Assembly (NCBI RefSeq): GCF_000519265.1
Contig: NZ_KI912608.1
Location: 1,990,582 to 2,054,581, forward strand
From: Desulfonatronum lacustre DSM 10312
Lineage (GTDB): Bacteria; Desulfobacterota; Desulfovibrionia; Desulfovibrionales; Desulfonatronaceae
Direction of reading: 5' to 3'
DNA length: 64,000 nt
Position 1 is the first letter of the stretch. Every line of letters starts with the position of its first letter. Shown piece after piece: positions 10,586-64,000 of this stretch. The notes under the pieces are model-generated. The model was given only the letters and a program-made list of their open reading frames with translations. It searched no databases and was not told the DNA's origin. The translations under genes and the position numbers were made by a program.

Positions 10586-10600
10586 GCAACCCCGTACGGC

Positions 10601-10657: not shown

Positions 10658-10748
10658 ACGCTCCGCGAGCCCCCGGAACATCTTCCAGGGGCGTCTTGCG
10701 TCCTTCGGCTTCCATGCCGTCGTGCCAGGAACTCCACCCCCTCCGTTT

Positions 10749-12572
<1,824 letters not shown>

Positions 12573-42909: not shown

Positions 42910-42911
42910 TG

Positions 42912-42950
42912 GGGCTATGGGCTATGGGCTATGGGCTATGGGCCATGGGC
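42912..42950. repeat. Heptamer array GGGCTAT between converging genes
   Basis: Four GGGCTAT units, one GGGCCAT and one degenerate GGGCGAG lie in the 46-base gap between the recD2 stop and the methyltransferase stop. Confidence 0.9.
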
Positions 42951-42955
42951 GAGGT

Positions 42956-43936
42956 TCAGACTATGCACACCCAGGTCAATTCGTGCTTGTTGTGCGCGAG
43001 ATGCAGGAGGCGGGAGTGGGGGATGGACCGGAACTGGTCGACGACCTGGAAGTCCGTCTCTCCCTGGAACTTGATGGTGCAGACCATGTTCCGGACCGTC
43101 CCGGCGTCCAGCCAGCGGCGGACCATGGCCAGCAGGCGCTCGGGATAGCAGACCACGTCCGAAAACAGCCAGTCCACCGGGCCAAAGGCTTGTGGGTCCT
43201 GGGCAAAGGCGCTTTCAGCCCGAAAGGTGATCCCCGGTAGTCCGGCCAGTCGGGCATCCAGCGGGGCCTTGTCCACGCTGATCACCCGTGCGCCCAACTC
43301 GTGCAGCACCCAGGTCCATCCGCCGGGGCTGGAGCCCAGGTCCAGGCAGAGCTGACCCGGCCGGGGACGCCGGTCCAGCAGGGTGAACACTTCCCACAGC
43401 TTCAGATAGGCCCGGCTCGGCGGGCCGGTCTTGTCCTCCACGAACAGCGCCTCGCCGTGGGCGAAGGGGCTGGAGCAACGGGGCGAGGCCAGCAGGGTGG
43501 TGTCGTCGAGCAAGGTCCAGGAACCAAGCGGGTGCTTGGGCAACGGGTCGCCGAAGACCAGGGGCCGGGAAGAGGGGCCGCGTAGCCGTTGCTGGATCAA
43601 GCGGGCCCGACCCCGGCGCGGCAGGTGTTCGTCGTACAAGGCCCAGCGCGGCCCCAACCCCTTGAGCGCGGTGGCGGCCTGGGCTATGGACGTGAAGGGG
43701 ATCACCCGAAGATCGTGCCAGATATTTTGCGCCCAGGCCGGAAGAACAGTGGCCGGAAGAGCAGTGGCCGGAAAAACAGTGATCGGACGAACAGCCACCG
43801 GATGAGCAAGCGGCGCGACGCACAGCGCCAAGCGTCCCAAGACACCTTCCACCGCGCCCAGTTCCCGCAGCAGCTCCGGCAGAAATCCCTCGGGCGCGAA
43901 ATACCCGACGCCGCCACGCGGCACCGCGAATCCCAT
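42956..43936 (-). CDS. FtsJ/RlmM-like SAM-dependent RNA methyltransferase
   Basis: 326 residues from the ATG at 43936; a GTG at 43960 is possible but almost abuts thiD. The C-terminal half is a Rossmann methyltransferase: SAM motif CLDLGSSPGGWTWVL, VISVDKAPL, and VDWLFSDVVCYPERLL. A catalytic K-D-K-E set is plausible (Lys in LKLWEVF, Asp in SDVV, Lys in CTIKFQGE, Glu beyond). This fits RlmM/FtsJ 2'-O-methylation of rRNA. The N-terminal third contains a PITVFPATALPATVLPA stretch encoded by four 15-bp repeats (about 43733-43795). Confidence 0.85.
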   Translation of the reverse strand: MGFAVPRGGVGYFAPEGFLPELLRELGAVEGVLGRLALCVAPLAHPVAVRPITVFPATALPATVLPAWAQNIWHDLRVIPFTSIAQAATALKGLGPRWALYDEHLPRRGRARLIQQRLRGPSSRPLVFGDPLPKHPLGSWTLLDDTTLLASPRCSSPFAHGEALFVEDKTGPPSRAYLKLWEVFTLLDRRPRPGQLCLDLGSSPGGWTWVLHELGARVISVDKAPLDARLAGLPGITFRAESAFAQDPQAFGPVDWLFSDVVCYPERLLAMVRRWLDAGTVRNMVCTIKFQGETDFQVVDQFRSIPHSRLLHLAHNKHELTWVCIV

Positions 43937-47965: not shown

Positions 47966-48120
47966 GACGTATGCTTGCTCGTTTATGGTTGCGAAGTTGA
48001 CGACGCTTGGGGCGACGGACGATTATTGACCGATGCCTCTCGACTAGGATAGTCGGAGGGATGTCGCGAAGGACGCGAATGTGTAACCTCAAGCCGGTAA
48101 AAAATCAAAAGAGCTTGTCC

Positions 48121-49497
48121 ATGAAAATGCAATCGTTTTTTCCGTCTTTTTTCTTATTTTTCTTGTCCGCCTTGTTTTTCGTCGCTTCCCCGACCCCGGG
48201 CCAAGCCATGGAACCAGCCGGCGCTCCGGACGCGATTTCCCCCGACGCAATTTCCTCGGACGTCCTCGTTCCCAACGCCTTCACTCTGGAACAGGCCGTC
48301 CGGCAAGGTTTGCGGGCCAATCCACGGATGGCCGCGGTTCGCGCCGCCCTCCGCGGAGCGGAGTTCGGGGAAATGTCGGCCAAGTCCGCTTTTTACCCCA
48401 CTTTCTCAGCCAACTATGGCTTTGGCTACGATGACAAGCCCTTAGCTGGCGGAGACAAGGACACCTGGACCCTGAACATCAACCTCAGCCAGCCCGTGTT
48501 CACCGGCTGGCGACTGCTGAACACGCACCAAAAAGCCCAATTGACCGTGGAACGAACCCAGGTCGAAGTGGAGAACATCGAGCTGAACCTGATCCTGCTC
48601 ATTCAGGAACAATTTCTGGAGTTGCTCAAGGCCAGGGAGAACGTCCGCAGCGCCCAGGACTCGGTCACCCGCCTGCAGTCCCAGTTGCAAAACGCTCAGG
48701 CTTTTTTCGACGTCGGACTGCGGCCCAAGTTCGACGTGCTCCAGGCCGAGGTGGACCTGGCCCGGGCCGAACAGGACTTGCTCATCGCCCAAAACGCCGT
48801 GGCCACCCAGATCGCCCGGCTGAACACCCTGCTCAATCTGGACCTGTCCACCGAAACGGACTACGTCGGCGAACTCACCTATGTGCCCTATGCGCCCCAA
48901 TTCGAGGAATCCCTGGAAACCGCGTACCGGCTGCGCCCGGATATCATCCTGGCCCTCAAGGCCGAGGAGATCGCGGACAAGGACGTTGAAATCACGGCCA
49001 GTGACCTCTATCCCCAAGTCTCCGCGGACCTGGATCTGTACAGCCGCGGGACTGACCCCACTGTTTCCGGTACCGACTCACGGCCCGATCCCTGGTGGAC
49101 CGCCGGCGTCAATATGCGCTGGCAGGCCTTCGACTGGGGCCGGACCCGCTACGCAACGGAACAGTCCCGCCAAAACGTCCTCCGGTTGCGCGAAGAGACG
49201 GCCAACCTGCGCCTGGAAGTCTCCTTTGCCGTCAAATCCCTGCATCTCAAGCTGGACGAAACCGCGGCCCGCATCGCGGTGGCCAACAAGGCCCTGGAAG
49301 AAGCCCGAGAAGGTTTTCGCATCGCCCAAGCCCGATTCCAGGCCCAGGTCGGCACCAACACGGACGTCCTGGACGCCCAGGCCCGCCTGACCCGCGGGGA
49401 AGCCGACCTGACCGACGCCATGGCCGACTACCAACTCACCCTGGCCCGCCTCTTCGCCGCCACCGGGGAACGAAACCCGGGGTTGCTGGTCCCGTAG
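48121..49497 (+). CDS. TolC-family outer-membrane channel protein
   Basis: 458 residues from the ATG at 48121. A signal peptide (FFLFFLSALFFVASPTPGQA) precedes two outer-membrane efflux repeats: FTLEQAVRQGLRANPRM, a beta hairpin ending NLSQPVFTGWRLL, and long helices with LKARENVRSAQDSV, FDVGLRPKFDVLQAEVDLARA and FQAQVGTNTDVLDAQARLTRGE. It would form a trimeric tunnel for type I export or efflux. It is the first gene after the gmhA divergent gap. Its first extracellular loop is short (about 12 residues), unlike that of the second TolC-like protein. Confidence 0.92.
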   Translation: MKMQSFFPSFFLFFLSALFFVASPTPGQAMEPAGAPDAISPDAISSDVLVPNAFTLEQAVRQGLRANPRMAAVRAALRGAEFGEMSAKSAFYPTFSANYGFGYDDKPLAGGDKDTWTLNINLSQPVFTGWRLLNTHQKAQLTVERTQVEVENIELNLILLIQEQFLELLKARENVRSAQDSVTRLQSQLQNAQAFFDVGLRPKFDVLQAEVDLARAEQDLLIAQNAVATQIARLNTLLNLDLSTETDYVGELTYVPYAPQFEESLETAYRLRPDIILALKAEEIADKDVEITASDLYPQVSADLDLYSRGTDPTVSGTDSRPDPWWTAGVNMRWQAFDWGRTRYATEQSRQNVLRLREETANLRLEVSFAVKSLHLKLDETAARIAVANKALEEAREGFRIAQARFQAQVGTNTDVLDAQARLTRGEADLTDAMADYQLTLARLFAATGERNPGLLVP

Positions 49498-49569: not shown

Positions 49570-50019
49570 ATGCAATCGGATCAGATCACCCGGGAAATCC
49601 TCTCCAGCCCAGCCTTTCGGGATCTGCTGGACAAGCATGTCGCGGACAGCCTGGCCGCCTTCGTGGAACTCCAGGAGAAGCGCGCCGGCCAGGCCTCGCT
49701 CATCGAGCGGATCGTCCGTGTCGAGGAGGCCCAGCGCTCCCACGAAGCCCTGACCCGGCTGCTCCTGGAACAGATCAACCTGCGCTTCGAGGAAATGCAG
49801 AAGTACATGGACAGCCGCTTCGAGCAGGTGGAAAAACGTTTCGAGCAGATCGACAAGCGCTTTGAGCAAATAGAAAAACGTTTTGAGCAGATGGATAAGC
49901 GCTTCGAGCAGGTGGACAAGCGCTTTGAAGCCCTGACCCGCCGCCTGGACCGCTTCATGATCTGGTCCCTGGGCTTGGTCGCCTCGTCCACGGCCCTGAT
50001 CATCACCATCTTAAAGTAG
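49570..50019 (+). CDS. Coiled-coil protein with C-terminal membrane anchor
   Basis: 149 residues. The middle contains tandem 7-residue repeats RFEQVEK, RFEQIDK, RFEQIEK, RFEQMDK, RFEQVDK (about residues 83-117), encoded by near-identical 21-bp units, giving a long coiled coil. A C-terminal membrane helix follows (MIWSLGLVASSTALIITIL). The design resembles Bdr/DUF1640-like proteins of unknown function. GAGG precedes the ATG. A decayed copy of its last 93 bases lies at 55264-55356. Confidence 0.8.
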   Translation: MQSDQITREILSSPAFRDLLDKHVADSLAAFVELQEKRAGQASLIERIVRVEEAQRSHEALTRLLLEQINLRFEEMQKYMDSRFEQVEKRFEQIDKRFEQIEKRFEQMDKRFEQVDKRFEALTRRLDRFMIWSLGLVASSTALIITILK

Positions 50020-50085
50020 CCATGCCGTCACCGGCTCCGCCCCATACCGTATAACCCGCGCCTTCCCGCCCCACACACTCAAGCC

Positions 50086-50113
50086 CCCATCGCCTATCGC
50101 CCCTAGCCCATCG
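50086..50113. repeat. Degenerate heptamer array before a glycosyltransferase gene
   Basis: Four units CCCATCG, CCTATCG, CCCCTAG, CCCATCG followed by a C run end seven bases before the ATG at 50121, filling the place where a Shine-Dalgarno would lie. Confidence 0.75.
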
Positions 50114-50120
50114 CCCCCCC

Positions 50121-50942
50121 ATGCCCCGCATCACCATCATCACCCCGAACAAGAACGGGGAGCGCTTTCTGGACCAAGCCATCCGGAGCGTCCTGGCCCA
50201 GCGCAATGACGGCGTCGACCTGGAGTACATCGTCCTGGACGGAGCCAGCACGGACGGCTCAATGAAGATCATTGAGCGCTACCGGAATCTGATCGACCTG
50301 GTGATCTCCGAACCGGATCAGGGGCCCGCCTCGGCGATCAACAAGGGGCTGCGTCTGGCCCGAGGGGAAATTCTGGCCTGGCTCAACGCCGACGATGTCT
50401 ATCACCCGAACACGCTCGCCCGGGTCCTGAAGGTGATGGACGCAAACCCAAAGGCGGCCCTGTGCTTCGGCTCCTGCCGGATCATCGACGAGCAAAACCG
50501 GGAAATCCGCCGGCCCATCACCCGCTTCAAGGAATGCTTCTTTCCCCTCTCCAGCCGCTTCACCATCCAGTGCATCAACTATATCTCCCAACCGTCCATG
50601 TTCTTTCGCCGCCGTGCCCTGGACCAGGCCGGGCCACTTCGTGAAGATCTCACAGCGGCCTTTGACTACGACTTCACTTTGCGCCTCCGGCGTCATGGCG
50701 ACGCGGCCCGCGTCCCCGGCCCGCCCCTGGCGGACTTCCGTTGGCGTCCCGATTCCATCAGCGGCTCCGGCTTCCAGATTCAGTTCCGGGAAGAACTCCA
50801 GGCCGTTGCCCGGGACGCCGGCCCCCTGGCCCCCCAAACCCTTGTCCACCACGGGGTCAGATGGGGTATCGTGGGCATCTACGCCTTGATGGCCTGGAGG
50901 CGAAACCAGCAAACGCGAAATCCATCGCGAAGCCCCGCGTAG
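50121..50942 (+). CDS. Family 2 glycosyltransferase
   Basis: 273 residues, GT-A fold. The N-terminal nucleotide-sugar region has TIITPNKNGERFLDQAIRSV, VLDGASTDGS and the metal-binding LAWLNADDVYHP. The acceptor half has YISQPSMFFRRRALDQAG and FDYDFTLRLRRHG. It probably adds a sugar to a surface glycan. First gene of a cassette of four glycosyltransferase-type genes and a membrane protein. Only C-rich heptamers precede the ATG and no ribosome site is visible. Confidence 0.9.
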   Translation: MPRITIITPNKNGERFLDQAIRSVLAQRNDGVDLEYIVLDGASTDGSMKIIERYRNLIDLVISEPDQGPASAINKGLRLARGEILAWLNADDVYHPNTLARVLKVMDANPKAALCFGSCRIIDEQNREIRRPITRFKECFFPLSSRFTIQCINYISQPSMFFRRRALDQAGPLREDLTAAFDYDFTLRLRRHGDAARVPGPPLADFRWRPDSISGSGFQIQFREELQAVARDAGPLAPQTLVHHGVRWGIVGIYALMAWRRNQQTRNPSRSPA

Positions 50943-50956
50943 CCCCGGACGACATC

Positions 50957-52093
50957 ATGGCCCGCATCGGCATCAGCGCGGTGGCTTTGGAGCCGCATCG
51001 GACCGGAGGAGCGGAAACCTATATCCGCCAACTTCTGCGATGCCCGGCGTTTCACCACGCCCTTCGCCGTCACGAGGTGCTCGTCTTCACCGGACAAACC
51101 ATTGACCCGGCTCTGGAAAATTGCGGCCTCAGACTCGTCCGCGCCACCGTGGACCCCGCTTGCCGCAACCATCGTCTGCTCTGGGAACAGTATGCTTTCC
51201 CAGGACTGTTGCGGCGTCATGACATCGACCTGGTTCACTTTCCCTATTCCGGTTTTCCCTGGGCCTGCCGGACGCCCTTCGTGGTCACGATTCACGACAC
51301 GACGAACTTCGTGATGCCCGGATCGGTCAGTCTCCCTGAGCGCGTCTACCGGCGCATTCTCCAGCGACGACTGCCAAAGATCGATCACGGCCACGTGATC
51401 ACCGTCTCGGACGCGGATCGGACCGTCTTTCTCCGCCATGTCCCTTTGGATGCCCGTCGCTGTACCACGGTGCATCATGGCCGCTCGCCGGACTTTACCT
51501 GTCCCGAACCGCTGCTCGGACAGCCCAGGCCGGACGGAGACCTGATCTGGTTCGGTCGCCCGTACCATCACAAGAACATCGACCTGCTGCCCCGGATGAT
51601 GCCCCACCTATACGCCTTGCTGGACCAAGCATCCCTGAGATCGCGTCCCAAGCTCCGCCTCGTGGGGCTGGATGCCGAGGAACAGCGACGCGCCCTGGCC
51701 CTCGGACAATCCCTGAGCATCACATCCCATATAACGGTGGAGCCCCCGGTCCCCCATGAACGATTGCCCGATTACCTCCGCAAGGCGCGCCTGCTGATTT
51801 TTCCATCAACCTACGAAAGCTTTGGCCTGCCCGCGCTGGAAGCCATGTCCAGCGGCACCCCGGTGGTCTGCTCCGACATTCCGGTCTTTCGAGAACTGTT
51901 CGCCGATGCGGCGATCTACGCGGACCCGTCTCGGCCGGAAGACTTTGCCCGAGCCTGTTTCGGACTGCTCAGCGTGCCAGAGTCCTGGCATAGTCAAGCC
52001 GTGCTTGGTTTTCATCGGGCCCAAGTCTATACGTGGGCGCGCTGCGCTGAAGAAACGGCGGCGGTTTATGAAAGAATTGCGTGGTCAATATGA
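50957..52093 (+). CDS. Family 1/4 glycosyltransferase (GT-B)
   Basis: 378 residues from the ATG at 50957, 14 bases after the previous gene. GT-B features: GGAETYIRQLL near the N-terminus, the HDTTNFVMP hinge region, and the C-terminal nucleotide-binding YESFGLPALEAMSSGTPVVCSD with the EX7E pair. It transfers a sugar from a nucleotide donor with retention of configuration, as in GT4. Substrate unknown. Its end overlaps the next gene. Confidence 0.9.
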   Translation: MARIGISAVALEPHRTGGAETYIRQLLRCPAFHHALRRHEVLVFTGQTIDPALENCGLRLVRATVDPACRNHRLLWEQYAFPGLLRRHDIDLVHFPYSGFPWACRTPFVVTIHDTTNFVMPGSVSLPERVYRRILQRRLPKIDHGHVITVSDADRTVFLRHVPLDARRCTTVHHGRSPDFTCPEPLLGQPRPDGDLIWFGRPYHHKNIDLLPRMMPHLYALLDQASLRSRPKLRLVGLDAEEQRRALALGQSLSITSHITVEPPVPHERLPDYLRKARLLIFPSTYESFGLPALEAMSSGTPVVCSDIPVFRELFADAAIYADPSRPEDFARACFGLLSVPESWHSQAVLGFHRAQVYTWARCAEETAAVYERIAWSI

Positions 52094-54413
52094 CCCCACC
52101 GCGTCTCAGCTCCCGAAACCAATTTTCCAGCCTCACATGACCAGCTTAAAAAACCTCGAGATCTGCGTCTTGATCTACGCCCTTCTGGGGGCCCTGCTTT
52201 TCCTTCGCCCACACCAGGAAACCTTTATCGGTCTGGACAGCTCGGCCATCCGCCTGATGACCCATGCTCCGACGCATGGCCGCGACCTGATCGGCGTGGA
52301 CCAGACCTTGACTCGCGTCCTGCCTGAACTGCGAACCTCCTTCCTGTACATCCCCGCCCCGCACCTGCGCATGACCCGGGACCGCTCCTTTCAACTGGAC
52401 GACCTGGATAGCTGTACCTATCGCCCTTGGTTCTATCCTTTTCTCACCTATGCCGCCTTGGGGTTCGATCATATCATCCCCGGAAAAGCGGTTGACTACT
52501 TTCTCCCTTCCCTGACCCTGCTCTTCTTCATCCTGGCCGGTGCGTTCATGGCGTCCAAGACCGGTTTGCCGGGACTGGTCGCCGCCCTGGGACTGATCGC
52601 CGGCCTGCCGCTGATTCCCTGGTTCGCTCGGGGATATTATCCGGAATGGGCGGCCTTGCTCCTGGTTTTTCCGGTGGTCCTGAACTGGTTGCGGGATCAA
52701 AGCCCCCCATCCTCTGGCCGCCACGCTTCAATTTTTCGCACTTCAGGCCACCCGCCTTCGTCGGCTTCACTATGTCTCAGCGCCTTTGTGCTCGGCTTGG
52801 CCGCCTGTTTTCACCCCGTGATCCTGCCCTGGTCCGGAGCCGTCTTTCTGCTGTTGATCATCGGATTCCCCACGATCCAAAATCTCCGAGTCCTGGCGGC
52901 GGGGGGCTGTTTCGCCCTCGGGCTGACTCCCTTGGTCATAGTGACCCAATGGGTGACCCGTCCCTACGGGGACATCTTCAACCCACGGTGGATGCTGGGC
53001 GCGGCCCAGGGCAGCACGTTGTTCTTCCTGCTGCTTCTGATCGCCGCGACCGGCTTGGCAGCCGCGGGCCTGCTCCTGACGCCGCGAGGCCGCTCCCGAC
53101 TCCACGACCTACTGTTCTCTCCAGGCTGGACGGCCCATGCCCTTCGCCTCTGCGCGGCCATGATCCCCACGGGCTTGCTCCTGCTGTCGGAGCAGACGAC
53201 AGCCGCGACTGCCGAAGGGCTGGCCGACCTCTGGTCCGTGCTGACCACGCCCTACGGGTTCATCGCGGCCGCCACCATTCTGGCCTCGTTCCTGCCGGCC
53301 GTTCGCCCCCGCCCCCGGGTCCTCCTGGTGGCCACCGTGGCCCTGGCCTCGGTCTATCTCTACCTCAAGGGCATTGAGCCCTTTGGCCTCTGGAGCCAGC
53401 GCCGTCTGCTGCCGGTCCTGTTTCCCTTCATCGTCGCGTCCCTGGCCGTCTGGCGCGACGTGCTTCATGCTCATGGACACCAGTGGCGAACAAACACGCT
53501 CATCCCCGGCGGGCTGGCCGCCATTGCCGCCGTCATGTTTACTCTGCACTCCCCCTTCTACCTGCTCCGGGCCGAATCCGGCGCGGATGCGGCGATCCGG
53601 ATGCTGGACGAAGCGACACAAGACGGGCTGACCTTCTACGACTACCATCAATATGGTTCTCCCCTGGCCGCACTGGGCCAAGTTGGGGCCTTGCCGCTCT
53701 CCAACCGCCTCACCGACGAAGCCCGCGAACAGGTGCTGCTCTGGGCCGAAAAGGCCGCTGCCAGCGAACCGGTCCGCTGGGTCTCGGCCTTTGCCAATCC
53801 AGGACTGGAACAAGGTGTAATTCTTGTGGAATCGCTGACCATCCGACAGGATCTGCCCCGCCTACGCGCCCGACGAGCATTCCCCGCCCAGGTCGCCCAA
53901 CATCCTCTGTCCATGACCGTCCTTGAGGCCCGTCCGATTCAGAACGCATCCCCCCTTCTCAAGCTGGACAAGATTCTGGATCGAGGGCCGCTAGCCTTGC
54001 GCGGGCCTTGGGGCAGGCCGGACATCCCTTTGTCGGCTCCGAACGGCGATCGTTTACCAGCACGTTGGACTCGTGAAGGTTCGGCGGTCATAGGCCCGCT
54101 ACCCGCTCCCGGAGAAGCCGTGCGGATCGAGATGGTCGCCGGGGCGGCCCGACGCGACGACCAAGCCCACCAAGTGGTCACCATCACCCCGCCCTGGCCC
54201 GGACCGGCCCTGGAATTGCGGGTGGAGAACACCCACACCGGGGTCTCGGGCCTCCTGCGCCGCCCACGAAACGCCGACTCCCCGGAGGATCGCACCGGCC
54301 AGTACGTTCTGACCACCCATGATCCCTACGATCCGGCGCAATACGACATCCGCGGTTTCGACGCCGATCTCGGCGTCCTGCTGCACCGCATCCGCATTGA
54401 GGCGGTGGATTGA
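52068..54413 (+). CDS. Large polytopic membrane protein, glycan-related
   Basis: About 781 residues with some 11 membrane helices in the first 500 and a 250-residue C-terminal soluble part. A luminal-type loop after the first helix (GLDSSAIRLMTHA, DDLDSCTYRPWFYP) resembles GT-C glycosyltransferases or flippase-associated glucosyltransferases that use lipid-linked sugars, but I cannot place it in a named family. The first ATG (52068) overlaps the upstream gene by 26 bases; ATG 52137 is an alternative. It ends TGATG with the next gene. Context suggests a step in assembling or transferring an oligosaccharide at the membrane. Confidence 0.72.
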   Translation: MKELRGQYDPTASQLPKPIFQPHMTSLKNLEICVLIYALLGALLFLRPHQETFIGLDSSAIRLMTHAPTHGRDLIGVDQTLTRVLPELRTSFLYIPAPHLRMTRDRSFQLDDLDSCTYRPWFYPFLTYAALGFDHIIPGKAVDYFLPSLTLLFFILAGAFMASKTGLPGLVAALGLIAGLPLIPWFARGYYPEWAALLLVFPVVLNWLRDQSPPSSGRHASIFRTSGHPPSSASLCLSAFVLGLAACFHPVILPWSGAVFLLLIIGFPTIQNLRVLAAGGCFALGLTPLVIVTQWVTRPYGDIFNPRWMLGAAQGSTLFFLLLLIAATGLAAAGLLLTPRGRSRLHDLLFSPGWTAHALRLCAAMIPTGLLLLSEQTTAATAEGLADLWSVLTTPYGFIAAATILASFLPAVRPRPRVLLVATVALASVYLYLKGIEPFGLWSQRRLLPVLFPFIVASLAVWRDVLHAHGHQWRTNTLIPGGLAAIAAVMFTLHSPFYLLRAESGADAAIRMLDEATQDGLTFYDYHQYGSPLAALGQVGALPLSNRLTDEAREQVLLWAEKAAASEPVRWVSAFANPGLEQGVILVESLTIRQDLPRLRARRAFPAQVAQHPLSMTVLEARPIQNASPLLKLDKILDRGPLALRGPWGRPDIPLSAPNGDRLPARWTREGSAVIGPLPAPGEAVRIEMVAGAARRDDQAHQVVTITPPWPGPALELRVENTHTGVSGLLRRPRNADSPEDRTGQYVLTTHDPYDPAQYDIRGFDADLGVLLHRIRIEAVD

Positions 54414-55297
54414 TGCCCTCCCTCCATGTCGTGGTGATCGTTCTGAACTGGAACGGATGGTCGGACACTGCGGCCTGCGTTCGTTCCGTTCTTCAAAGCA
54501 CGTATGCCGACTTTGACGTCATGGTGGTGGACAACGGTTCCACGGACGACTCGGTCATCCGACTGCGCCGGGAATTTCCCGACCTGACCATCCTGGAGAC
54601 CGGCGAAAACCTGGGCTTTGCCGGCGGCAACAACGCCGGAATGCGCCATGCCCTGGACCACCAGACGGCGGATTTCATCTGGCTGCTGAACAACGACACC
54701 CAGCCCCGGGCCGACGCCATGGAGGCCCTGGTTCAAGCCGCGAACGCCGCCCCCCGCGTCGGAGCTTTAGGCGCGTTGATCATGGAAGCGGAGAACCCGG
54801 AGATCGTCCAGCTTCGGGGAGGGCATCGCTTTTCTCTCCGGCTGGGCATGCCGTTGCCCGCACCGCATGGACGCCCCCCGGACTATCTGTGCGGCGCCAG
54901 CATGTTCCTGCGCCGCGACTGCCTGGAACAATGCGGCCTGCTGGACCCCGGTTATTTCTTTTATTTCGAGGACACGGAATTTTGCTTCCGCATCCGGCGT
55001 CATAACTGGACCCTTGCCGTGGAGGAACGAGCCGTGGTCCTGCATCGCGGTTCGGCCAGCGTCGGCGCGGGCAGCTTCACCCAGGCCTACTGGTACCGTC
55101 GCGGCCTGATCCGCTTTCTGCGCACCCACGCCCCTTTCCCCTGGCTCCCGATCCTCGGCACCACCGCCGCCCGCCTTCTGCTGGCCGTCCTGGCCCGGAA
55201 CGGACCGGTGCTTCGGGGGACCTGGAACGGCTTTTGGGACGGCCTCGCGGAGCCGAGGCCAACGAAGCCCTGGCCCGCCGACTGGACCGCTTCATGA
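54413..55297 (+). CDS. Family 2 glycosyltransferase (rhamnosyltransferase-like)
   Basis: 294 residues from the ATG overlapping the previous stop. VVIVLNWNGWSDTAACVRSV, VVDNGSTDDSV, NLGFAGGNNAGMRHAL and FIWLLNNDTQP are typical of WbbL-type rhamnosyltransferases; FFYFEDTEFCFRIRRHNW is the acceptor motif. The last 11 or so codons lie, out of frame, in a relic of the coiled-coil gene, so the natural C-terminus appears to have been replaced by a recombination event. Confidence 0.88.
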   Translation: MPSLHVVVIVLNWNGWSDTAACVRSVLQSTYADFDVMVVDNGSTDDSVIRLRREFPDLTILETGENLGFAGGNNAGMRHALDHQTADFIWLLNNDTQPRADAMEALVQAANAAPRVGALGALIMEAENPEIVQLRGGHRFSLRLGMPLPAPHGRPPDYLCGASMFLRRDCLEQCGLLDPGYFFYFEDTEFCFRIRRHNWTLAVEERAVVLHRGSASVGAGSFTQAYWYRRGLIRFLRTHAPFPWLPILGTTAARLLLAVLARNGPVLRGTWNGFWDGLAEPRPTKPWPADWTAS

Positions 55298-55356
55298 TCT
55301 GAACCCTGGGCTTGATCGCTTCCTCCACGGCCTTGATCATCACCGTTTTGAAGTAA
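55264..55356 (+). pseudogene. Relic of the 3' end of the coiled-coil membrane gene
   Basis: 93 bases align without gaps to 49927-50019, about 81 identical. In that frame it reads EALARRLDRFMI, a stop (TGA for TGG), then TLGLIASSTALIITVLK and a stop. It overlaps the 3' end of the preceding glycosyltransferase gene. Confidence 0.85.
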
Positions 55357-55412
55357 TCACCTCGTCTGGAATGGTTGCCGAGTCCCGCCTTTTTGGCTAA
55401 GGGCCTAGGATC

Positions 55413-56174
55413 ATGTCCGCGCATCACGTTCAAGACGCCCCCTTCCGCCAAACTCCGCCGTTGCCCAAAGCCGCTTCCCCTGTACTGGTCGTCATTCCGG
55501 CCTGGAACGAGCAAGCCAGCATCGGTGATGTTGTCCGTCAAGTCATTGCTCTTGAAGAATTCCACGTCTTGGTTGTGGACGACGCCAGCACGGACGACAC
55601 GGCTGATCTCGCCCTGCGGGCCGGCGCCCAGGTGGTGACGCTGCCGGTCAATCTGGGAGCTTGGGGCGCCATGCAGACCGGGATGCGCTACGCCCGACAA
55701 AACGGCTATCAAACAGTGATCACCATGGACGCCGACGGACAGCACCTGGCCGAAACCCTGCCGTCGCTGCTCACGCCCCTTCGCGACTACCACGCCGACG
55801 TGGTCATCGGCTCCTGCACCCCTCGGGGCAGCCGGGCTCGAAAAACCGCCTGGACCCTCTTCCGCCGACTGTCCGGCCTGAACGTCCGGGATCTGACCTC
55901 CGGGCTGAGGGCCTACTCCGGCCCGGCCGTCACGCTGCTGGCCTCCAGTCGGGCCTCTCTCCTGGATTACCAGGACGTCGGGGTCCTGCTCCTGCTGCGC
56001 AAGGCCGGGCTGCGCATTCAGGAAGTCCAGGTGGCCATGTGCCCGCGCCGACACGGTTCATCCAAGGTTTTCAGCTCCTGGTTGAAGGTCGGCGAGTACA
56101 TGCTGCTGACGCTGGTCCTTTGTCTTTCCCACTGCATGTCCCGGCCAACCCCCCAGCCACAAGGCACCAAGTGA
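55413..56174 (+). CDS. Family 2 glycosyltransferase, polyprenyl-phosphate-sugar synthase-like
   Basis: 253 residues. VLVVIPAWNEQASIGDVV, VVDDASTDDTADLA, LPVNLGAWGAMQTGMRYA, TMDADGQH and GSRARKTAWTLFRRLSG are typical of DPM1-like enzymes that put a sugar on a polyprenyl phosphate carrier. There is no long C-terminal membrane pair, but a hydrophobic tail (MLLTLVLCLSHCM). The next gene (DUF2304) is a frequent neighbour of such enzymes. Confidence 0.9.
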   Translation: MSAHHVQDAPFRQTPPLPKAASPVLVVIPAWNEQASIGDVVRQVIALEEFHVLVVDDASTDDTADLALRAGAQVVTLPVNLGAWGAMQTGMRYARQNGYQTVITMDADGQHLAETLPSLLTPLRDYHADVVIGSCTPRGSRARKTAWTLFRRLSGLNVRDLTSGLRAYSGPAVTLLASSRASLLDYQDVGVLLLLRKAGLRIQEVQVAMCPRRHGSSKVFSSWLKVGEYMLLTLVLCLSHCMSRPTPQPQGTK

Positions 56175-56542
56175 CCCCCCTTCCAATCCCCTTGCAATGG
56201 ACCACCGGCCTGCTCGGCCTGGGCATTGCCTGCGCGATTCTGCTGCTCATCCGCAAGGACAGCCTGCACGTCCGGCATTCCATCTGGTGGCTGACCGTGG
56301 CAGCGGGTTCGGTCCTGCTCGGTTTTTTTCCCCGCCTTGTGGACCAACTCGGCACCCTGCTCGGCGTCCATTACCCACCCATCCTTTTCCTGACCATGGC
56401 CGTCGGCATGATCCTGATCAAGATCCTGACCATGGACATTGAACGCTCCCGCCAGGAACGCGCCCTGCGTCGGCTGACCCAACGGATGGCCATCCTGGAA
56501 GCCCGGCTTCCCGATCAACATCAGGCCGACGACGAGTCCTGA
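56171..56542 (+). CDS. DUF2304 small membrane protein
   Basis: 123 residues from a GTG overlapping the previous stop (GTGA). Three membrane helices (about 9-25, 38-57, 68-88) and a C-terminal coiled coil (SRQERALRRLTQRMAILEAR). This is the DUF2304 plan; members sit beside DPM1-type glycosyltransferases and may assist their membrane step. Function not established. Confidence 0.85.
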   Translation: MTPLPIPLQWTTGLLGLGIACAILLLIRKDSLHVRHSIWWLTVAAGSVLLGFFPRLVDQLGTLLGVHYPPILFLTMAVGMILIKILTMDIERSRQERALRRLTQRMAILEARLPDQHQADDES

Positions 56543-56771: not shown

Positions 56772-58547
56772 ATGTCACGGAAATACTCGCCCTCCCTCCC
56801 AACACTTTCCAAGCAGGTTCTCTCCGGCCTGCTCGTCATTGCTCTCACGCTCCCGCCCCTGCCGATCCTGGCTCGAGAGGCCGAAGAGATTGAAAACAAC
56901 GCCCCGGACGCCACGAGCGCCCTGATTCTGGAAATGGAGGAATGCGTCCAGATCGGCCTGGTCCGCAATCCCCGCATCAAGGCCGCTGAATACGCCGTCC
57001 AACGGGCCGGTTCGGACGTCCATGCCGCTTTCGCCGATTTTCTGCCCCGGATTGACACCGGTTTTCAGGCTCGGAGGATGCGCCAAATGCGCTCCGGACT
57101 GCCGTCCACGGATACCGAAGAACAAGAAAACGGGGATTCCGCTGAAAGTGACGACAACGACCACTACGACGGCCCGGCTGAAGGCGAAGGCGCCAGGATG
57201 CTGGCCCGGGCCCTGGCCAAAAATAAAGACGACACCCCGCTCCCTGCGGACCCGGTCAATCCCACCCCCGTCTTCAACCCATTTGAAGAACTTCAGCAGC
57301 AACTCAATCAGATCAACGAGGGCTTGAATCAACAGAATCAAGCCCTGGCCGGCCTTGATGAGAATTTGAGCAACCTCGATGAAAACCTGGAGGAACTCAA
57401 CGTCAAGCTGGACGATCTCCAGGAGGCCCTGAACAAGCGCCCCCTGGACGCGGATTCCACCAGTTTCGACGAGACCGTCTGGTATGCGCGCATCAGCCAG
57501 CCCGTGTTCACCGGCTTCACCATCACCAACACCTACCTCCGTTCCCGGTTGACCCGGGAAATGACGGAAGCGGAGTTGGAATACGTTCGACTGGAGGTGG
57601 CTCGGGATATCCGCGTGGCCTTCCTGAACGTGCTCTGGGCCCAGGAGGACATGCGCAGCCTGGAAGCCCGAATCACCCGCCTGGAAGCCCAGCTTGAGGC
57701 GGCTGAAGCCTTCACGCGTCTCGGCATGAAGCCCTACCTGGATGTGCTGCAGGCCGAAGTGGATCTCAGCGAGGCCCGCCAGGATCACACCCAGGTGCTC
57801 AACGCCCAACGGGTGCACACGGCCCGTCTGCTGACCCTGATGGGCATGCCCTCGGAAACCCCCCTGGAGGTCGCCGGACGCCTGGAGTCCTTTCAGCCCG
57901 ACTTTTCCCTGACCTTGCATGAATGCTTGGCCGAGTCCCGCAACAATCGCCCGGACCTGTTCATCGCCCACAAGGCCGTGGAAGTGGCTGAAAAAGACGT
58001 TCATCTTGCCTGGGGCCGGTTCGCGCCCACGGCATCCGTGGATTTCGCCTACAATGTTCAGGACCGGAAATACCGGGACCGAGAAGTCGCCGAACGCTAC
58101 GACTACAGCGACCGCCAGTACTGGACCCTGGGCCTGAACGTCTCCATGAACCTGTTCGAAGGGGGCCGTTCACGGGCCATGGTCATGCGCGCACGCCATG
58201 AGCTGTTCCGGATTCGGGAGGATATGCTGCACCACGAGATGCAGGCCGCCTACGAAGTGGAGTCCGCGTACCTGGTCCTGCATGAAGCCCAACAGCGCAT
58301 CGATTCCACGGTCAAGGTCCGGGCCGCGGCCCAGGAAGCCTACGACATGGCCCTGGTCCGCTACCGCACCGAAATCGGCACCCAAACCGAACTCCTGGAC
58401 GCCCAGGAACGCCTGGCCCGCTCGGAAACCAATACCAATCAGGCCCGCGCCCAATACAACCGCGCCCGCGCCCAACTCTACTTCGCCATGGGCTGGCTCG
58501 AATCCCACCCAACCCCACAAACCCAACAAGCTCAACAAACCCAATAA
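56772..58547 (+). CDS. TolC-family protein with large extracellular-loop insertion
   Basis: 591 residues from the ATG at 56772, then a signal peptide (VLSGLLVIALTLPPLPILA). TolC features: LEMEECVQIGLVRNPRIKAAEY, WYARISQPVFTGF, FTRLGMKPYLDVLQAEVDLSEA, WTLGLNVSMNLFEGG, YRTEIGTQTELLDAQERLARSE. Between the first two beta strands (about residues 102-233) it carries an acidic segment and a coiled coil (QQQLNQINEGLNQQNQ, NLDENLEELNVKLDDLQEAL), absent from the other TolC-like protein here. By TolC topology this loop is outside the cell. The C-terminus (PTPQTQQAQQTQ) is encoded by the 9-bp repeat array. First gene of the type I secretion operon. Confidence 0.92.
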   Translation: MSRKYSPSLPTLSKQVLSGLLVIALTLPPLPILAREAEEIENNAPDATSALILEMEECVQIGLVRNPRIKAAEYAVQRAGSDVHAAFADFLPRIDTGFQARRMRQMRSGLPSTDTEEQENGDSAESDDNDHYDGPAEGEGARMLARALAKNKDDTPLPADPVNPTPVFNPFEELQQQLNQINEGLNQQNQALAGLDENLSNLDENLEELNVKLDDLQEALNKRPLDADSTSFDETVWYARISQPVFTGFTITNTYLRSRLTREMTEAELEYVRLEVARDIRVAFLNVLWAQEDMRSLEARITRLEAQLEAAEAFTRLGMKPYLDVLQAEVDLSEARQDHTQVLNAQRVHTARLLTLMGMPSETPLEVAGRLESFQPDFSLTLHECLAESRNNRPDLFIAHKAVEVAEKDVHLAWGRFAPTASVDFAYNVQDRKYRDREVAERYDYSDRQYWTLGLNVSMNLFEGGRSRAMVMRARHELFRIREDMLHHEMQAAYEVESAYLVLHEAQQRIDSTVKVRAAAQEAYDMALVRYRTEIGTQTELLDAQERLARSETNTNQARAQYNRARAQLYFAMGWLESHPTPQTQQAQQTQ

Positions 58548-58562
58548 ACCCAACAAACCCAA
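58516..58562. repeat. 9-bp array (CCCAACAAA type) at the tolC/hicB-like junction
   Basis: About five units of CCCAACAAA/CCCAATAAA run from the last codons of the tolC-like gene to the base before the next ATG. The stretch contains no G-rich ribosome site. Confidence 0.9.
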
Positions 58563-59051
58563 ATGCCTTCCACCTACTCCATAACCTTGCTCTGGGATGA
58601 ACAACGGGACGGATATATCGCCTACTGCCCTGAATTCCCCGAGTTGGAGGCCTTTTCTTCCTCCCCCGCAACCGCCGCCGCCGGGATTGAAGCCCAGATC
58701 CTGGCACGGCTCAACGAGATGCATGGCCGCGGAGCTCCTCCTCCTGCTCCGCGGCACTGCGTCCCGTTCAGCGGCCAGTTCCGGCTCCGCCTGCCCAAGA
58801 GCCTGCATGCCACCCTGTCTCGAGAAGCCGAGGACGAAGGCCTCTCCTTGAACGGCTACATCCAATACCTTCTGGCCGCCCGGCACGCCGCGACCATCGC
58901 GACCCAGCCAAACGCGACGCACCGGATCGACGACATCCAGGAAACCGTCCGCCTGATCCAGGACCGGGTCGACAGCCTGACCTTCACCCAGGAAGAACAC
59001 CCGAATTTCCTCTGGAACAACGAATCCGCCGCCACCATCTCGTTGCAATAG
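58563..59051 (+). CDS. HicB-like protein without HicA partner
   Basis: 162 residues. The N-terminal part is a HicB partial RNase H-like fold (YSITLLWDEQRDGYIAYCPE, FSSSPATAAAGIEAQI). FRLRLPKSLHATLSREAEDEG, LSLNGYIQYLLA form a ribbon-helix-helix DNA-binding domain. An additional C-terminal helix (DDIQETVRLIQDRVDSL) follows. HicB proteins normally neutralise HicA toxins; no hicA is present. Its place between a tolC-like and the ABC exporter genes suggests a regulator of this operon or its substrate, but that is inference. No Shine-Dalgarno is visible. Confidence 0.85.
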   Translation: MPSTYSITLLWDEQRDGYIAYCPEFPELEAFSSSPATAAAGIEAQILARLNEMHGRGAPPPAPRHCVPFSGQFRLRLPKSLHATLSREAEDEGLSLNGYIQYLLAARHAATIATQPNATHRIDDIQETVRLIQDRVDSLTFTQEEHPNFLWNNESAATISLQ

Positions 59052-59190
59052 GGTTTGTTGGGTTTGTGGAGTTTGTTAGGTTTGTGGAGCTAAATAAAAT
59101 TTCCTAACCAACCAAAACAACCCAATAAACCCAACAAACCCAATACAACCCAACAAACCCCAAAAACCCAACAAACCCAAAAAAACCAAA
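59051..59190. repeat. Inverted 9-bp arrays able to form a long hairpin
   Basis: GGGTTTGTT-type units (59051-59089) face CCCAACAAA-type units (59107-59187) across about 17 bases of AT-rich sequence. The RNA stem could exceed 30 bp. The second arm ends at the ATG of the next gene, again without a ribosome site. Confidence 0.88.
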
Positions 59191-59619
59191 ATGATTCGCC
59201 TAATCTGGTCCGTCCTTTGCCGAGAAATCCTCACCGACCGGGAAACCAATTCCGTGAGCTACATCCATAGCATAGAGGAGGGGGCCGCCACGGTTCTGCC
59301 CACCCGCATCGCGCCCGTGAGCCTGGGAACGCTCTGGGAAATGGACGGCACGCAGCCGGAGCCCTTCGCCGCCCGGATCACGCTCGGCACCCCCTCGGGC
59401 CAGGAGATCGGCATGCTCCAGACCGGCCGGTTGACCTTCACCAACCCCAGGCACCGCCTCCATTTTCGCCTTCAAGGCCTGCCCATGACCGAGTTCGGCC
59501 GCCACGAAATCCGTCTGGATTTCACCAAAGACAACCAATGGCAACGCGCCGCGACCATGCCCTTCGTCCTGCGCCGCCTCATACTCCCCCCAACCCCAAA
59601 AACCCCACCAACCCCATAA
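59191..59619 (+). CDS. Unknown small protein of the type I secretion operon
   Basis: 142 residues, no signal peptide or membrane helix. LCREILTDRETNSVSYIHSIEEG and ARITLGTPSGQEIGML, then FRLQGLPMTEFGRHEIRLDF suggest a beta-sandwich (C2-like) fold; similar small proteins of unknown function exist in bacteria, but I do not recognise a named family. The last ten residues (LPPTPKTPPTP) are encoded by the next 9-bp array. Lies between the HicB-like and exporter genes, so probably part of the operon. Confidence 0.72.
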   Translation: MIRLIWSVLCREILTDRETNSVSYIHSIEEGAATVLPTRIAPVSLGTLWEMDGTQPEPFAARITLGTPSGQEIGMLQTGRLTFTNPRHRLHFRLQGLPMTEFGRHEIRLDFTKDNQWQRAATMPFVLRRLILPPTPKTPPTP

Positions 59620-59634
59620 ACCCAACAAACCCAA
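59585..59634. repeat. 9-bp array before the first ABC exporter gene
   Basis: About five CCCAACAAA-like units extend from the last codons of the unknown gene to the ATG at 59635. As at the two previous junctions, no Shine-Dalgarno is present. Confidence 0.88.
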
Positions 59635-61362
59635 ATGTCTTACCCAGCCACCATCTCCACCCAAACCGTCCACCCGCTCAGCGCGACCAGCAAACCGGCC
59701 GGCATGGACCCGGTCACGGCCAAGCTCCGCGCCCTGACCCGTCACGTTTTCGGCCGCACCCTGCTTTTCAGCTTCGTGGCCGGGGTCCTGCGCCTGGCCG
59801 TGCCCATGAACATGCTGGCCATGTACAGCATCGTCATTCCCAGCCAGGACCCTCTCAACGCCTACGTCATCACCGGCGCGGCCCTGGGGGCGCTTTTGGC
59901 CATGGGGCTGCTGGAACTGGTCCGCTCCAGGTTGATGGTCCGATACGGAGTGGCGGTGCAGCGCGACCTGTCCGACACGGTGCTTTCCGGAATGCTCCGG
60001 GACTCCGCGGAAATGCATTCCCAGGGTTTTTCGGAGGCCATGGGCAACCTGCAAAAGGTGCGCAACTTCGTCAGTTCGCCGGCTGTGTTCGCGCTGTTCG
60101 ACTGCCTGCTCGCCCCGTTTCTGCTGCTCATCGTCTTTCTGATCCACCCGATTATGGGCCTGACGGCCCTGGTTTCCATCGGCTGCGTCGTCCTGCTGGC
60201 CTGGAGAATGGAAAAAGGCTCCAAGGCCCCCTTGAAGCAGGCCAATGTCCTGGCCGGCAAGAACAACTCTTTTTTGCAGGAATGTCTGCGCGGCAAGGCC
60301 GCCATCCAGGCCATGGGCATGACCGACGCGGTTTCCGGCCTCTGGCGCCGGGATCAGGACAAAGTCCTGGCCCTGCAGTCCGGGGCCAGCGATCAGGCCG
60401 GCCGGCTTTCGGCCATGTCCAAGCTGGTGACCATGGGCAACACCGTCGTCTTATTCGGCATCGGCGCCCATCTGGTGATCAATTCGCCCATGGGCGCGGG
60501 CAACGTTCTGATGGCCGTGATCATTGCCGGACAGGCCATCATGCCCCTGCACCAGGCCATGGCCAACTGGACCAATCTCCAGGAAGCCCGCCAGGCTTAC
60601 GGCAACCTGAAGGACCTGCTGGCCGGGTCCGCCGAGCAGGCCGAGCGCATGGAACTGCCTCCGCCCAAGGGCGCCCTGGCCCTGGAACAACTGGTCTTCG
60701 CCCTTCCCGGACAGGCGATTCTGCGCGGCGTATCCCTTTCCCTGGAGCCCGGTGAATTCCTGGGCGTGATCGGCCCCATGGCCGCGGGCAAGACCACCCT
60801 GGCCCGCCTGCTGACCGGGGTGGTCAGGCCCACCTCCGGAACCATTCGCCTGGACGGCGCGGACATGTACAACTGGGACCAGACCCGCCTGGGAAAATTT
60901 CTGGGATATCTGCCCCAGGAAGTTGAACTGTTCCCCGGGACCATCAGCGAGAACATCGCCCGGATGGCCGAGCCGGCCCCCGAATTCCTGGACCGGGCCG
61001 CGGCCATGTCCGGGCTGGACTCGGCCCTGGCCGGGCAGCCCGACGGGTTGGACACCCTGATCGCCGAAGGCGGGGCCAACCTGCCCGGTGGTCTGCGCCA
61101 ACGCATCGGCCTGGCCCGTGCTCTGTACGGCAACCCGCGGCTGGTCATCCTGGACGAACCCGACGCCAATCTTGATCAAGCCGGCCGCGACGCCCTGCTG
61201 GCCGCCCTGGCCGAACTCAAGCGCCGCCAGGTCACCGTGGTCATGGTCACCCACCGCGTCTCCCTGATCACCCGCTCCGACAAACTCCTGGTCCTCCAAC
61301 AAGGCGTCCCGGTCCAATACGGCCCCACGTCCGATGTCCTGTCCAAACTTCAAAACAAATAG
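59635..61362 (+). CDS. Type I secretion ABC exporter, PrtD-like (first of two)
   Basis: 575 residues. Six membrane helices in the first 330 (LLFSFVAGVLRLAVPMNMLAMY; LFDCLLAPFLLLIVFLIHPIMGL), no peptidase or C39-like domain. Nucleotide-binding domain: Walker A GPMAAGKTT, Q-loop YLPQEVELF, signature LPGGLRQR (degenerate LSGGQ), Walker B LVILDEPDANLD, switch His in VMVTHR. This is the PrtD subgroup exporting RTX-type proteases or adhesins. An ABC paralogue and an HlyD adaptor follow, and a TolC-like gene lies upstream, making a full tripartite system. No RTX substrate is in the window. Confidence 0.93.
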   Translation: MSYPATISTQTVHPLSATSKPAGMDPVTAKLRALTRHVFGRTLLFSFVAGVLRLAVPMNMLAMYSIVIPSQDPLNAYVITGAALGALLAMGLLELVRSRLMVRYGVAVQRDLSDTVLSGMLRDSAEMHSQGFSEAMGNLQKVRNFVSSPAVFALFDCLLAPFLLLIVFLIHPIMGLTALVSIGCVVLLAWRMEKGSKAPLKQANVLAGKNNSFLQECLRGKAAIQAMGMTDAVSGLWRRDQDKVLALQSGASDQAGRLSAMSKLVTMGNTVVLFGIGAHLVINSPMGAGNVLMAVIIAGQAIMPLHQAMANWTNLQEARQAYGNLKDLLAGSAEQAERMELPPPKGALALEQLVFALPGQAILRGVSLSLEPGEFLGVIGPMAAGKTTLARLLTGVVRPTSGTIRLDGADMYNWDQTRLGKFLGYLPQEVELFPGTISENIARMAEPAPEFLDRAAAMSGLDSALAGQPDGLDTLIAEGGANLPGGLRQRIGLARALYGNPRLVILDEPDANLDQAGRDALLAALAELKRRQVTVVMVTHRVSLITRSDKLLVLQQGVPVQYGPTSDVLSKLQNK

Positions 61363-61434: not shown

Positions 61435-63111
61435 ATGTTCCGCTTCATCCCCAAATCCCTCATCCCCATCTACGCTACGGCCTTTTTTTTCAGCCTGTTC
61501 ATCAACGTGCTCAGTTTGGCCGTGCCGTTGCACATGCTGCAAATCTTCGACCGGGTGCTCACCGGGCGCAGCGAGGCCACGTTGATCTTCGTGACCATGG
61601 CGGCCCTGCTGGCCTTGACGATCATGGGCGTTCTGGAGGGGCTGCGCTCCCGGCTTCTGGTTCGGCTGGGCAACCGGGTGGACCAGCGCATGGGCGATCC
61701 CGTAATCAAGGCCATGTTCACGCCCAAGGGGCTGCCCGGAACGCCGAGCTACGAACGCGGCGCCGCGGACCTGAACGCGGTGAAGGCGTTTCTCGGCGGC
61801 ACCGGCATTTTCGCTTTTTTCGACCTGCCCTGGCTGCCCATCTATCTGGCCGTGACCTTCATGCTCCATCCGGTGATCGGCATGGTTTCCACGGTCGGGG
61901 CCGTGGTGCTGTTCCTGCTGTTGTTCGTCAACGAGTCCCTGACCCGCAAGGCGGCCCGCGAAGCAGCCGAGTCCTCCTCCCAGGCCGCGACCATCCTCCG
62001 CACGGCCCAGCGCAACGTCCATGCCGTGTACGCCATGGGCATGCTCCCGGACATCGTGGCCCGGTGGCAGCGCAACGGGGGCCGCGACCTGGCCATGGAA
62101 ACCCGGGTCCACAACCGGACCGGCCTCAGCTCAGCCATGACCAAAACCCTGCGCATGGGCCTGCAGGCCATTATTCTCAGCGTGGGCGCGGTGCTGGTGA
62201 TCGCCAACGAGATTACCGCCGGGGTGATGATCGTGGGGTCGATCATGATGGGCAAGGCCCTCCAGCCCCTGGACCTAATCCTGGCCGGCTGGCGGCAGTT
62301 TCAGGAAGCCCGCCTGGCCGCGGGGCGCTTGAACCTGGCCGTGCCAAGTTCCGACCGCTCTTCGGCTTCCGACCGGCTCCGGCCACGGCAAACCCTGGAA
62401 CTGCCCTCGGGCTCGGCCGCCCCGGTTCCCACGCCCCACCCAGGGCTGCTCGTCCGTGACCTGAACCTCCGGCTCCACGATCGCCCGATCCTCACCAACG
62501 TCTCCCTGGACCTGCCTCCCGGCCGGATCATGGCCCTGGTCGGCCCCAGCGGTGCGGGAAAGACCACGCTGGCCGGCACCCTGGTCGGCCTGTACGCCCC
62601 GGAATCCGGAGAACTGCGTCTCGACGGTCACGACCTGACCACCCTGGACGAGGCGTCAAGATCCTCGCTCATCGGCTATCTTCCCCAGGACGTGGAGCTG
62701 CTCCCGGCCACGGTGGGCCAGAACATCGGCCGGATGAGCGACGAAGACGCCCAAGGCATCGTCACCGCGGCCCAGGCCGCCGGGGCGCACGAATTGATTC
62801 TCCGCCTTCCCCGGGGCTACGACACCCCGGTCGCGCCACGGGCCGCCAACCTCTCAGCCGGGCAGCGCCAGCGCATCGCCCTGGCCCGCGCCCTCTACGG
62901 CCACCCGCGGCTGCTGGTCCTGGACGAACCCGACGCCAACCTGGACGACGAAGGCCGCCAGGCCCTGGCCAGGGCCATCGCCGCGGCCCGAAGCAACGGC
63001 AACCTCATCCTGCTCATCTCCCACCGCCCCTGGATCCTCAAAATGGCCGACGCCGTGATCCAACTTGAAGAGGGAAAGGTAATAACCCAACAATCTCCAC
63101 AAACCCCATAA
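61435..63111 (+). CDS. Type I secretion ABC exporter, PrtD-like (second of two)
   Basis: 558 residues from the ATG at 61435. Six membrane helices (FFFSLFINVLSLAVPLHMLQIFDRVL is the PrtD start), no peptidase domain. NBD motifs: Walker A GPSGAGKTT, Q-loop YLPQDVELL, signature LSAGQRQR, Walker B LLVLDEPDANLD, His in LLISHR. It is a paralogue of the preceding exporter. The two may form a heterodimer, the first having the weaker signature motif. Its C-terminal ITQQSPQTP again runs into 9-bp repeat-like sequence. Confidence 0.93.
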   Translation: MFRFIPKSLIPIYATAFFFSLFINVLSLAVPLHMLQIFDRVLTGRSEATLIFVTMAALLALTIMGVLEGLRSRLLVRLGNRVDQRMGDPVIKAMFTPKGLPGTPSYERGAADLNAVKAFLGGTGIFAFFDLPWLPIYLAVTFMLHPVIGMVSTVGAVVLFLLLFVNESLTRKAAREAAESSSQAATILRTAQRNVHAVYAMGMLPDIVARWQRNGGRDLAMETRVHNRTGLSSAMTKTLRMGLQAIILSVGAVLVIANEITAGVMIVGSIMMGKALQPLDLILAGWRQFQEARLAAGRLNLAVPSSDRSSASDRLRPRQTLELPSGSAAPVPTPHPGLLVRDLNLRLHDRPILTNVSLDLPPGRIMALVGPSGAGKTTLAGTLVGLYAPESGELRLDGHDLTTLDEASRSSLIGYLPQDVELLPATVGQNIGRMSDEDAQGIVTAAQAAGAHELILRLPRGYDTPVAPRAANLSAGQRQRIALARALYGHPRLLVLDEPDANLDDEGRQALARAIAAARSNGNLILLISHRPWILKMADAVIQLEEGKVITQQSPQTP

Positions 63112-63118
63112 ACTCATC

Positions 63119-64000
63119 ATGAAAAACCAACTTTCACTCCCCACTGCGTCGAAACCCCATACCGAACCAACGGCCCCTTCCGACAACACCCGACCGATCA
63201 TCATCGCCGGGCTGCTGATCATTCTGCTCTTTTTCGGAGGGCTGGGCGCCTGGGCGGCCATGGCCACCATCAGCGCGGCGGTCATCGCCCAGGGCGAGGT
63301 CAAGGTGGATTCCAACCGCCGCACCGTTCAGCACCTGGAGGGCGGCATCGTCCGGGAAATTCTGGTCCGTGACGGCGATCGGGTCAGCCGCGGGCAGGTT
63401 TTGATTCGCCTCGAGGCCGAGCAGGTCAGCGCGGCCTACGATCTCCAGCAGGGCCAACGCGACCATCTCCTGGCCGTCAAGGCCCGTCTGGAAGCCGAGC
63501 GGGATCGCGCCGAGCGCGTATCCTGGCCCCCGGAACTGCTGGAGCGCCGGGACGAGTCCAACGTGTCCGCCACCATGGAAGGGGAAAACAAGATCTTTCA
63601 GGCCCGCCGCTCCGCCCTGCAAAACCAGACCGGACTGCTGCATACCCAGATCGAGCAGTTGCAAATCTTCATTCGCAGCCTGGACGAACAGGCCGTGGCC
63701 GTGGACCGGATCATCGCCTCCCTGGTCGACGAGATCGACTCCAAGACCATTCTCATGGAAGGCCGCTACCTGGAAAAATCACATATCATGGAGTTGACCA
63801 GAACGTTGGACGGCCATCGCGCCCGCCAGGAACAGCTCATCGGCGAACGGGCCCAGACCCGGGAGCGCATCGCCGAATTGCGGCTGCGCATCCAGGATCT
63901 GAACACCCAGTACATGCAGGAGGCCGTGACCAAACTCGGCGAAACCCAGAACGCCCTGTTCGAGTTGGAGGACCGTCGACGGCCCACCGTGGACCAGGCC
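63119..64000 (+). CDS. HlyD/PrtE-family membrane fusion protein, 3' end outside the window
   Basis: 294 codons from the ATG at 63119 to the right edge, no stop. A membrane helix (about 25-48, PIIIAGLLIILLFFGGLGAW) is followed by the HlyD lipoyl half (AQGEVKVDSNRRTVQHLEGG, then GIVREILVRDGDRVSRGQVLIRL) and a long coiled coil. It bridges the ABC exporter and the TolC-like channel. It belongs to the same operon, seven bases after the second exporter. Confidence 0.93.
   Translation, partial: MKNQLSLPTASKPHTEPTAPSDNTRPIIIAGLLIILLFFGGLGAWAAMATISAAVIAQGEVKVDSNRRTVQHLEGGIVREILVRDGDRVSRGQVLIRLEAEQVSAAYDLQQGQRDHLLAVKARLEAERDRAERVSWPPELLERRDESNVSATMEGENKIFQARRSALQNQTGLLHTQIEQLQIFIRSLDEQAVAVDRIIASLVDEIDSKTILMEGRYLEKSHIMELTRTLDGHRARQEQLIGERAQTRERIAELRLRIQDLNTQYMQEAVTKLGETQNALFELEDRRRPTVDQA

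Follow-up and report, generated by a model that had tools for sequence, protein, structure and literature searches.

Why should a small set of glycosyltransferase genes be flanked by two copies of the end of one and the same gene? In the 64,000-nucleotide stretch of the Desulfonatronum lacustre DSM 10312 chromosome that we analysed (hereafter, the window), the final 93 bases of a coiled-coil (CC) gene, at 49927-50019, are seen again at 55264-55356. The original prediction was that the intervening genes had been inserted or replaced by recombination at this sequence, which would make the 3' end of the CC gene a recombination point. We found that the repeat is real and has an ordinary cause. Most likely, two ordinary processes overlap at this locus, an exchange of glycan genes and the loss of a CC gene in place by microhomology deletion.

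The end of a coiled-coil gene recurs beyond a set of glycosyltransferase genes

All features of the locus lie on the + strand. Its left flank is TolC1 (48007-49497), which encodes an outer membrane efflux protein (Pfam OEP) and is conserved in all eight genus genomes sampled. Downstream lies a full-length 5' CC gene (CC5, 49570-50019), whose 149-aa product has heptad repeats and a hydrophobic tail. It is followed by a GT2 glycosyltransferase gene (GT2a, 50121-50942; Pfam Glycos_transf_2), a GT4-type (GT-B) glycosyltransferase gene (GT4a, 50957-52093; Pfam Glycos_transf_1), a gene for a 758-aa multi-helix membrane protein (MEMB, 52137-54413) that matches no Pfam or other family, and a second GT2 gene (GT2b, 54413-55297), in which out-of-frame sequence of the second copy, hereafter the relic (55264-55356), has taken the place of the last codons and the stop. 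Next come a DPM1-like GT2 gene (55413-56174; Pfam GT2) and, adjoining it, a gene for a small DUF2304 membrane protein (56171-56542; Pfam PF10066). The Pfam glycosyltransferases suggest a glycan function for the genes of the locus. MEMB is at most a candidate GT-C protein, with a structure model of pLDDT 33.

The two copies align without gaps at 81/93 positions (87.1%), the longest exact run being 20 nt, and a slightly longer pairing (repeat D5, 49927-50029 with 55264-55366) is 84% identical over 103 nt. By comparison, no other ungapped placement in the window exceeds 46/93 matches, and a score of 81 is 11 SD over background. When translated in the CC frame, the relic reads EALARRLDRFMI, a stop, TLGLIASSTALIITVLK and the final stop, the internal stop being due to a TGG to TGA (W-to-stop) change. 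Its homology begins on the left at the tetramer GAAG (55264-55267) and extends on the right to ~10 bases past the stop codon at most. The repeat, with its equal length, ~87% identity and stop mutation, is thus as originally described, and so are the two GT2 genes, GT-B gene and large membrane protein between the copies and the out-of-frame end of the last GT2 gene, whose stop, at 55297, lies inside the relic in a different frame. A search for more copies over the entire chromosome (3.76 Mb in one contig), which had been proposed as a check, returned just these two, and scattering of the 93-base end through the genome was therefore rejected, though distant CC relatives exist.

A relative carries a complete coiled-coil gene at the place of the relic

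We compared the locus across eight genomes of the genus, including that of the window (G000), and searched for MEMB among 150 genomes of the order. Two of the assemblies are fragmented, G007 (440 contigs) and G001 (a metagenome-assembled Desulfovibrionales bacterium, REDL01000075.1; 140 contigs), and the whole locus is covered in three genomes only, with an intact 3' CC gene in one only. MEMB was found in G000, G001 and G003 only, and the same three are the only ones of the eight in which the DPM1-like gene or a close CC gene was found. When contigs were scanned with the DPM1-like protein, G001 was the only close relative returned.

The gene order in the window is TolC1, CC5, GT2a, GT4a, MEMB, GT2b, relic, DPM1. 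In G001, it is TolC1, CC5, a small ORF, GT2a, GT4b, MEMB, DPM1, and GT2b is absent. In G003, TolC1 is followed by a small ORF, a methyltransferase gene, a GT2 gene, a GT4-type gene, MEMB, GT2b, a full-length CC gene (CC3) and DPM1. G007 has TolC1, GT2a and GT4b, the first two without an intervening CC gene, and its contig ends there; G002, G004, G005 and G006 carry other sequence past TolC1, as far as their contigs extend. CC5 has an ortholog at the same position in G001 (89.3% nucleotide identity), and a CC gene at the 5' position is absent in G003 and G007, one genome of the same group thereby having no upstream CC gene whatever. The GT4 slot holds a different, distantly related gene in G001 (26% amino acid identity) and yet another in G003. 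Among the relatives, MEMB is 56-71% identical at the amino acid level, and the DPM1-like protein of the window is 88% identical to that of G003 and 79% to that of G001.

In G003, the place of the relic is taken exactly by CC3, a complete CC gene of 149 codons with GT2b on one side and the DPM1-like gene on the other. At 92.5% identity, the relic is closer to the end of CC3 than to CC5 of either the window or G001 (87.1% each). At sites where these sequences divide two against two, five of six pair the relic with G003 and CC5 with G001, the stop codon (TAA versus TAG) included. Identity between the window and G003 is ~88-94% over a collinear stretch covering the 3' part of GT2b, the relic and the spacer preceding DPM1, and the DPM1-like gene starts a right flank that is again collinear. 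The relic and the intact CC3 have the same left neighbor, the 3' end of GT2b, which argues that the relic is a remnant left in place. It bears the marks of a pseudogene remnant, having an intact homolog at the corresponding site of a relative and disabling changes, with 357 of 450 nt missing besides the internal stop. We consider it very probable that the relic is the leftover of a second, complete CC gene and that the glycan genes were exchanged separately, by homologous recombination.

The junction in the window reads GCCAACGAAG immediately followed by CCCTGGCC. In G003, GCCAACGAAGGC is found at the GT2b end and CTTTGAAGCCCTG inside CC3, 420 bp apart, with GAAG at both ends of the 420 bp that the window has lost relative to G003. 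The ancestor would have had a complete CC3 between GT2b and the DPM1-like gene, and ~420 bp would have been deleted between a GAAG tetramer close to the GT2b stop and another within CC3. This deletion would have taken the stop codon of GT2b, the spacer and the initial 357 of the 450 CC3 bases, after which GT2b would have terminated out of frame within the remnant; the W-to-stop change in the remnant may have occurred before or after. A deletion from GAAG to GAAG would account for the left boundary and 93-base length of the repeat as well as for the out-of-frame end of GT2b. We infer the order of events and the direction, a deletion in the window lineage, which is favored because the alternative would require the reconstruction of an entire gene at this site. 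Microhomology-mediated deletion can leave a pseudogene remnant. The present case likewise has the same short tetramer at either end of what was lost, with one copy retained, and shows no notable difference from such deletions, its junction being deduced from one diverged relative rather than from a close pair of strains with and without the deletion.

Glycan genes appear to be exchanged between conserved flanks

Within the outer genes of the set, sequence identity changes abruptly. Between the window and G007, identity in GT2a drops from 94.4% to 75.8% near 50535 (LR 56.4; 0/500 permutations), and between the window and G003, identity in GT2b rises from 64.0% to 89.8% near 55088 (LR 51.4; 0/500 permutations). 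At four-fold degenerate sites, where the tests rest on fewer sites, the steps are 88 to 60% in GT2a and 38 to 73% in GT2b, with the observed value reached in 4/500 and 5/500 permutations, respectively. The change points are ~520 bases past the CC5 stop and ~175 bases before the relic, and therefore neither marks the CC end. Since they come from separate genomes (G007 and G003), they need not bound one exchange.

The flanks tell conflicting histories. By rpoB, G001 pairs with G003 (91.1%) and G000 with G005 (91.1%), identities between these groups being 82.5-84.7%. The left flank, comprising TolC1 and gene 47195, gives 92-94% for G001-G003 and ~76-82% between groups, and here too G000 pairs with G005. 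In the right flank (DPM1, DUF2304 and TolC2), G000-G003 identity is 84-86% and G001-G003 identity 72-78%; these three genes and gene 59191 group G000 with G003, contrary to rpoB. Four-fold degenerate sites show the reversal as well, those of gene 59191 being 88% identical for G000-G003 and 47% for G001-G003. Given this reversal between rpoB and the left flank on one side and the right flank on the other, the sequences suggest that the right flank of one of the two, G001 or G003, was probably received from elsewhere, the simplest reading being a donor in the group of the window and G003 as recipient. For the stretch from DPM1 to the type I secretion block (TolC2 at L015 16751-18529 and L016 7155-8921), exchange across species is likely. 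A candidate exchange tract at TolC1/CC5, where G000-G001 identity is raised, was rejected because every pair shows conservation in the 3' half of TolC1.

The locus thus has both signs of exchange, with variable glycan genes (the GT4 genes, MEMB and GT2b) between flanks that are kept (TolC1 and DPM1), and mosaic ancestry with breakpoints at ~50535 and ~55088 and conflicting flank relationships. The glycan genes between these flanks have probably been swapped among related species by homologous recombination, presumably of the RecA type, independently of the deletion and with crossovers within GT2a and GT2b. For capsule and O-antigen loci, exchange proceeds through homologous recombination in the conserved genes that flank them (PMC6249986), and here too variable glycosyltransferase genes, conserved flanks, mosaic relatives and crossovers in shared genes are found. 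In contrast to those loci, ours is small (4-5 genes), is bordered by a TolC gene and a DPM1-like/DUF2304/type I secretion block, and has its crossovers inside the outer GT2 genes (PMC6249986). Accordingly, cassette replacement as originally proposed holds in that the content between TolC1 and DPM1 varies and is mosaic, but not in naming the CC 3' end as the exchange site; the outer GT2 genes are the apparent places where cassettes have been swapped between species.

Other origins of the repeat

Could the repeat nevertheless have arisen as first proposed, through insertion or replacement of the cassette at the CC 3' end, with a duplicated 93-base target left on the far side? A direct repeat does flank the cassette, and the glycan genes that relatives carry in this interval do differ. 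However, the relic has the left neighbor of the intact CC3, identity changes in GT2a and GT2b, G007 has GT2a directly after TolC1 without a CC gene, and the copies share no exact run longer than 20 nt, making this origin highly improbable. A role for the CC 3' end as a recombination point is contradicted by the intact CC3 at the place of the relic and by the changes inside GT2a and GT2b. Relatives with the same cassette and no second copy, which were expected to speak against the original prediction, exist in part, G001 having GT2a and MEMB with one CC gene. The CC copies might instead have come from a duplication and, when full length, served as direct repeats able to loop out or swap the whole cassette. 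This is unlikely, even though CC genes in direct orientation occur 5' in the window and G001, 3' in G003, and on both sides (one decayed) in the window. Speaking against it, CC5 and CC3 are only ~83-85% identical, other CC members adjoin sensor kinase, pilin and motility genes rather than glycan cassettes, and the predicted product, TolC1-CC-DPM1, with the CC gene directly before DPM1, was seen in none of the eight genus genomes. That paired CC genes once acted as such arms in the genus, of which the window would be a decaying example, is a little more doubtful still.

A known precedent for repeat-driven excision is wzy of Salmonella Typhimurium, which is reversibly excised between 113-bp direct repeats (PMC12074656). 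Like wzy, the glycan region here lies between two direct copies of ~100 bp; unlike the wzy repeats, which are identical and att-like, these copies are 87% identical and consist of a gene end and a decayed gene, and the excised form was not found (PMC12074656). The near-identical repeats of an excisable cassette are missing, and a one-copy form is absent from the eight genomes, a small sample. Excision of the wzy kind is not supported, because exact matches between the copies extend over 20 bases at most and no TolC1-CC-DPM1 product was found. It is barely credible that the relic is a conserved functional element, such as an RNA or regulatory site, matching the CC end by chance: while it is still 92.5% identical to the G003 gene, it matches coding sequence right up to the stop codon, is interrupted by an in-frame stop, shows neither a terminator-like nor a promoter-like site and is no more conserved than its flanks. 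The relic is best read as a deletion remnant, which illustrates how a gene duplicate lost in place can give rise to a conspicuous repeat flanking a glycan cassette. The lesson, a modest one, is to inspect the same position in relatives before calling a flanking repeat a recombination site.

Minor features of the locus and its relatives

A general link between CC genes and glycan loci was rejected, as other members adjoin sensor kinase, prepilin and motA/motB-like genes (names assigned by visual inspection of the sequences). Of the distant relatives (L022 7071-7595, L131 6607-7194, L018 4110-4841 and L019 8392-9366), one type is beside prepilin genes in the genome of the window and in G003, and another is between sensor-kinase genes in G001 and G003. 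The number of 21-base heptad-coding repeats in the CC gene varies by species (window 49802-49948; L015 9898-10431; L016 10378-10827), giving 149 codons in the window and G003 and 177 in G001. The small ORF of ~105 codons (MSDQR...HPSRHLR...; L015 about 10560-10885; L016 about 17113-17430, minus strand) is 3' of TolC1 in G003 and 3' of CC5 in G001, and is missing in the window.

Degenerate heptamer arrays (GGGCTAT/GGGCGAT) are found in intergenic regions across the genus, including the window (42902-42960 and 50085-50120), L126 (1-290 and 6400-6962) and L128 (6690-6900), and in G005 they flank a gene resembling that of a four-helix-bundle (S23-type) protein. Xanthomonas and Nostoc are reported to carry G-rich heptamer repeats (PMC4692102). 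Separate 9-base arrays (AACCCAACA/AACCCAATA), in both orientations, occupy intergenic spaces of the type I secretion operon (58493-58573, 59045-59200, 59584-59645 and 63084-63119 in the window).
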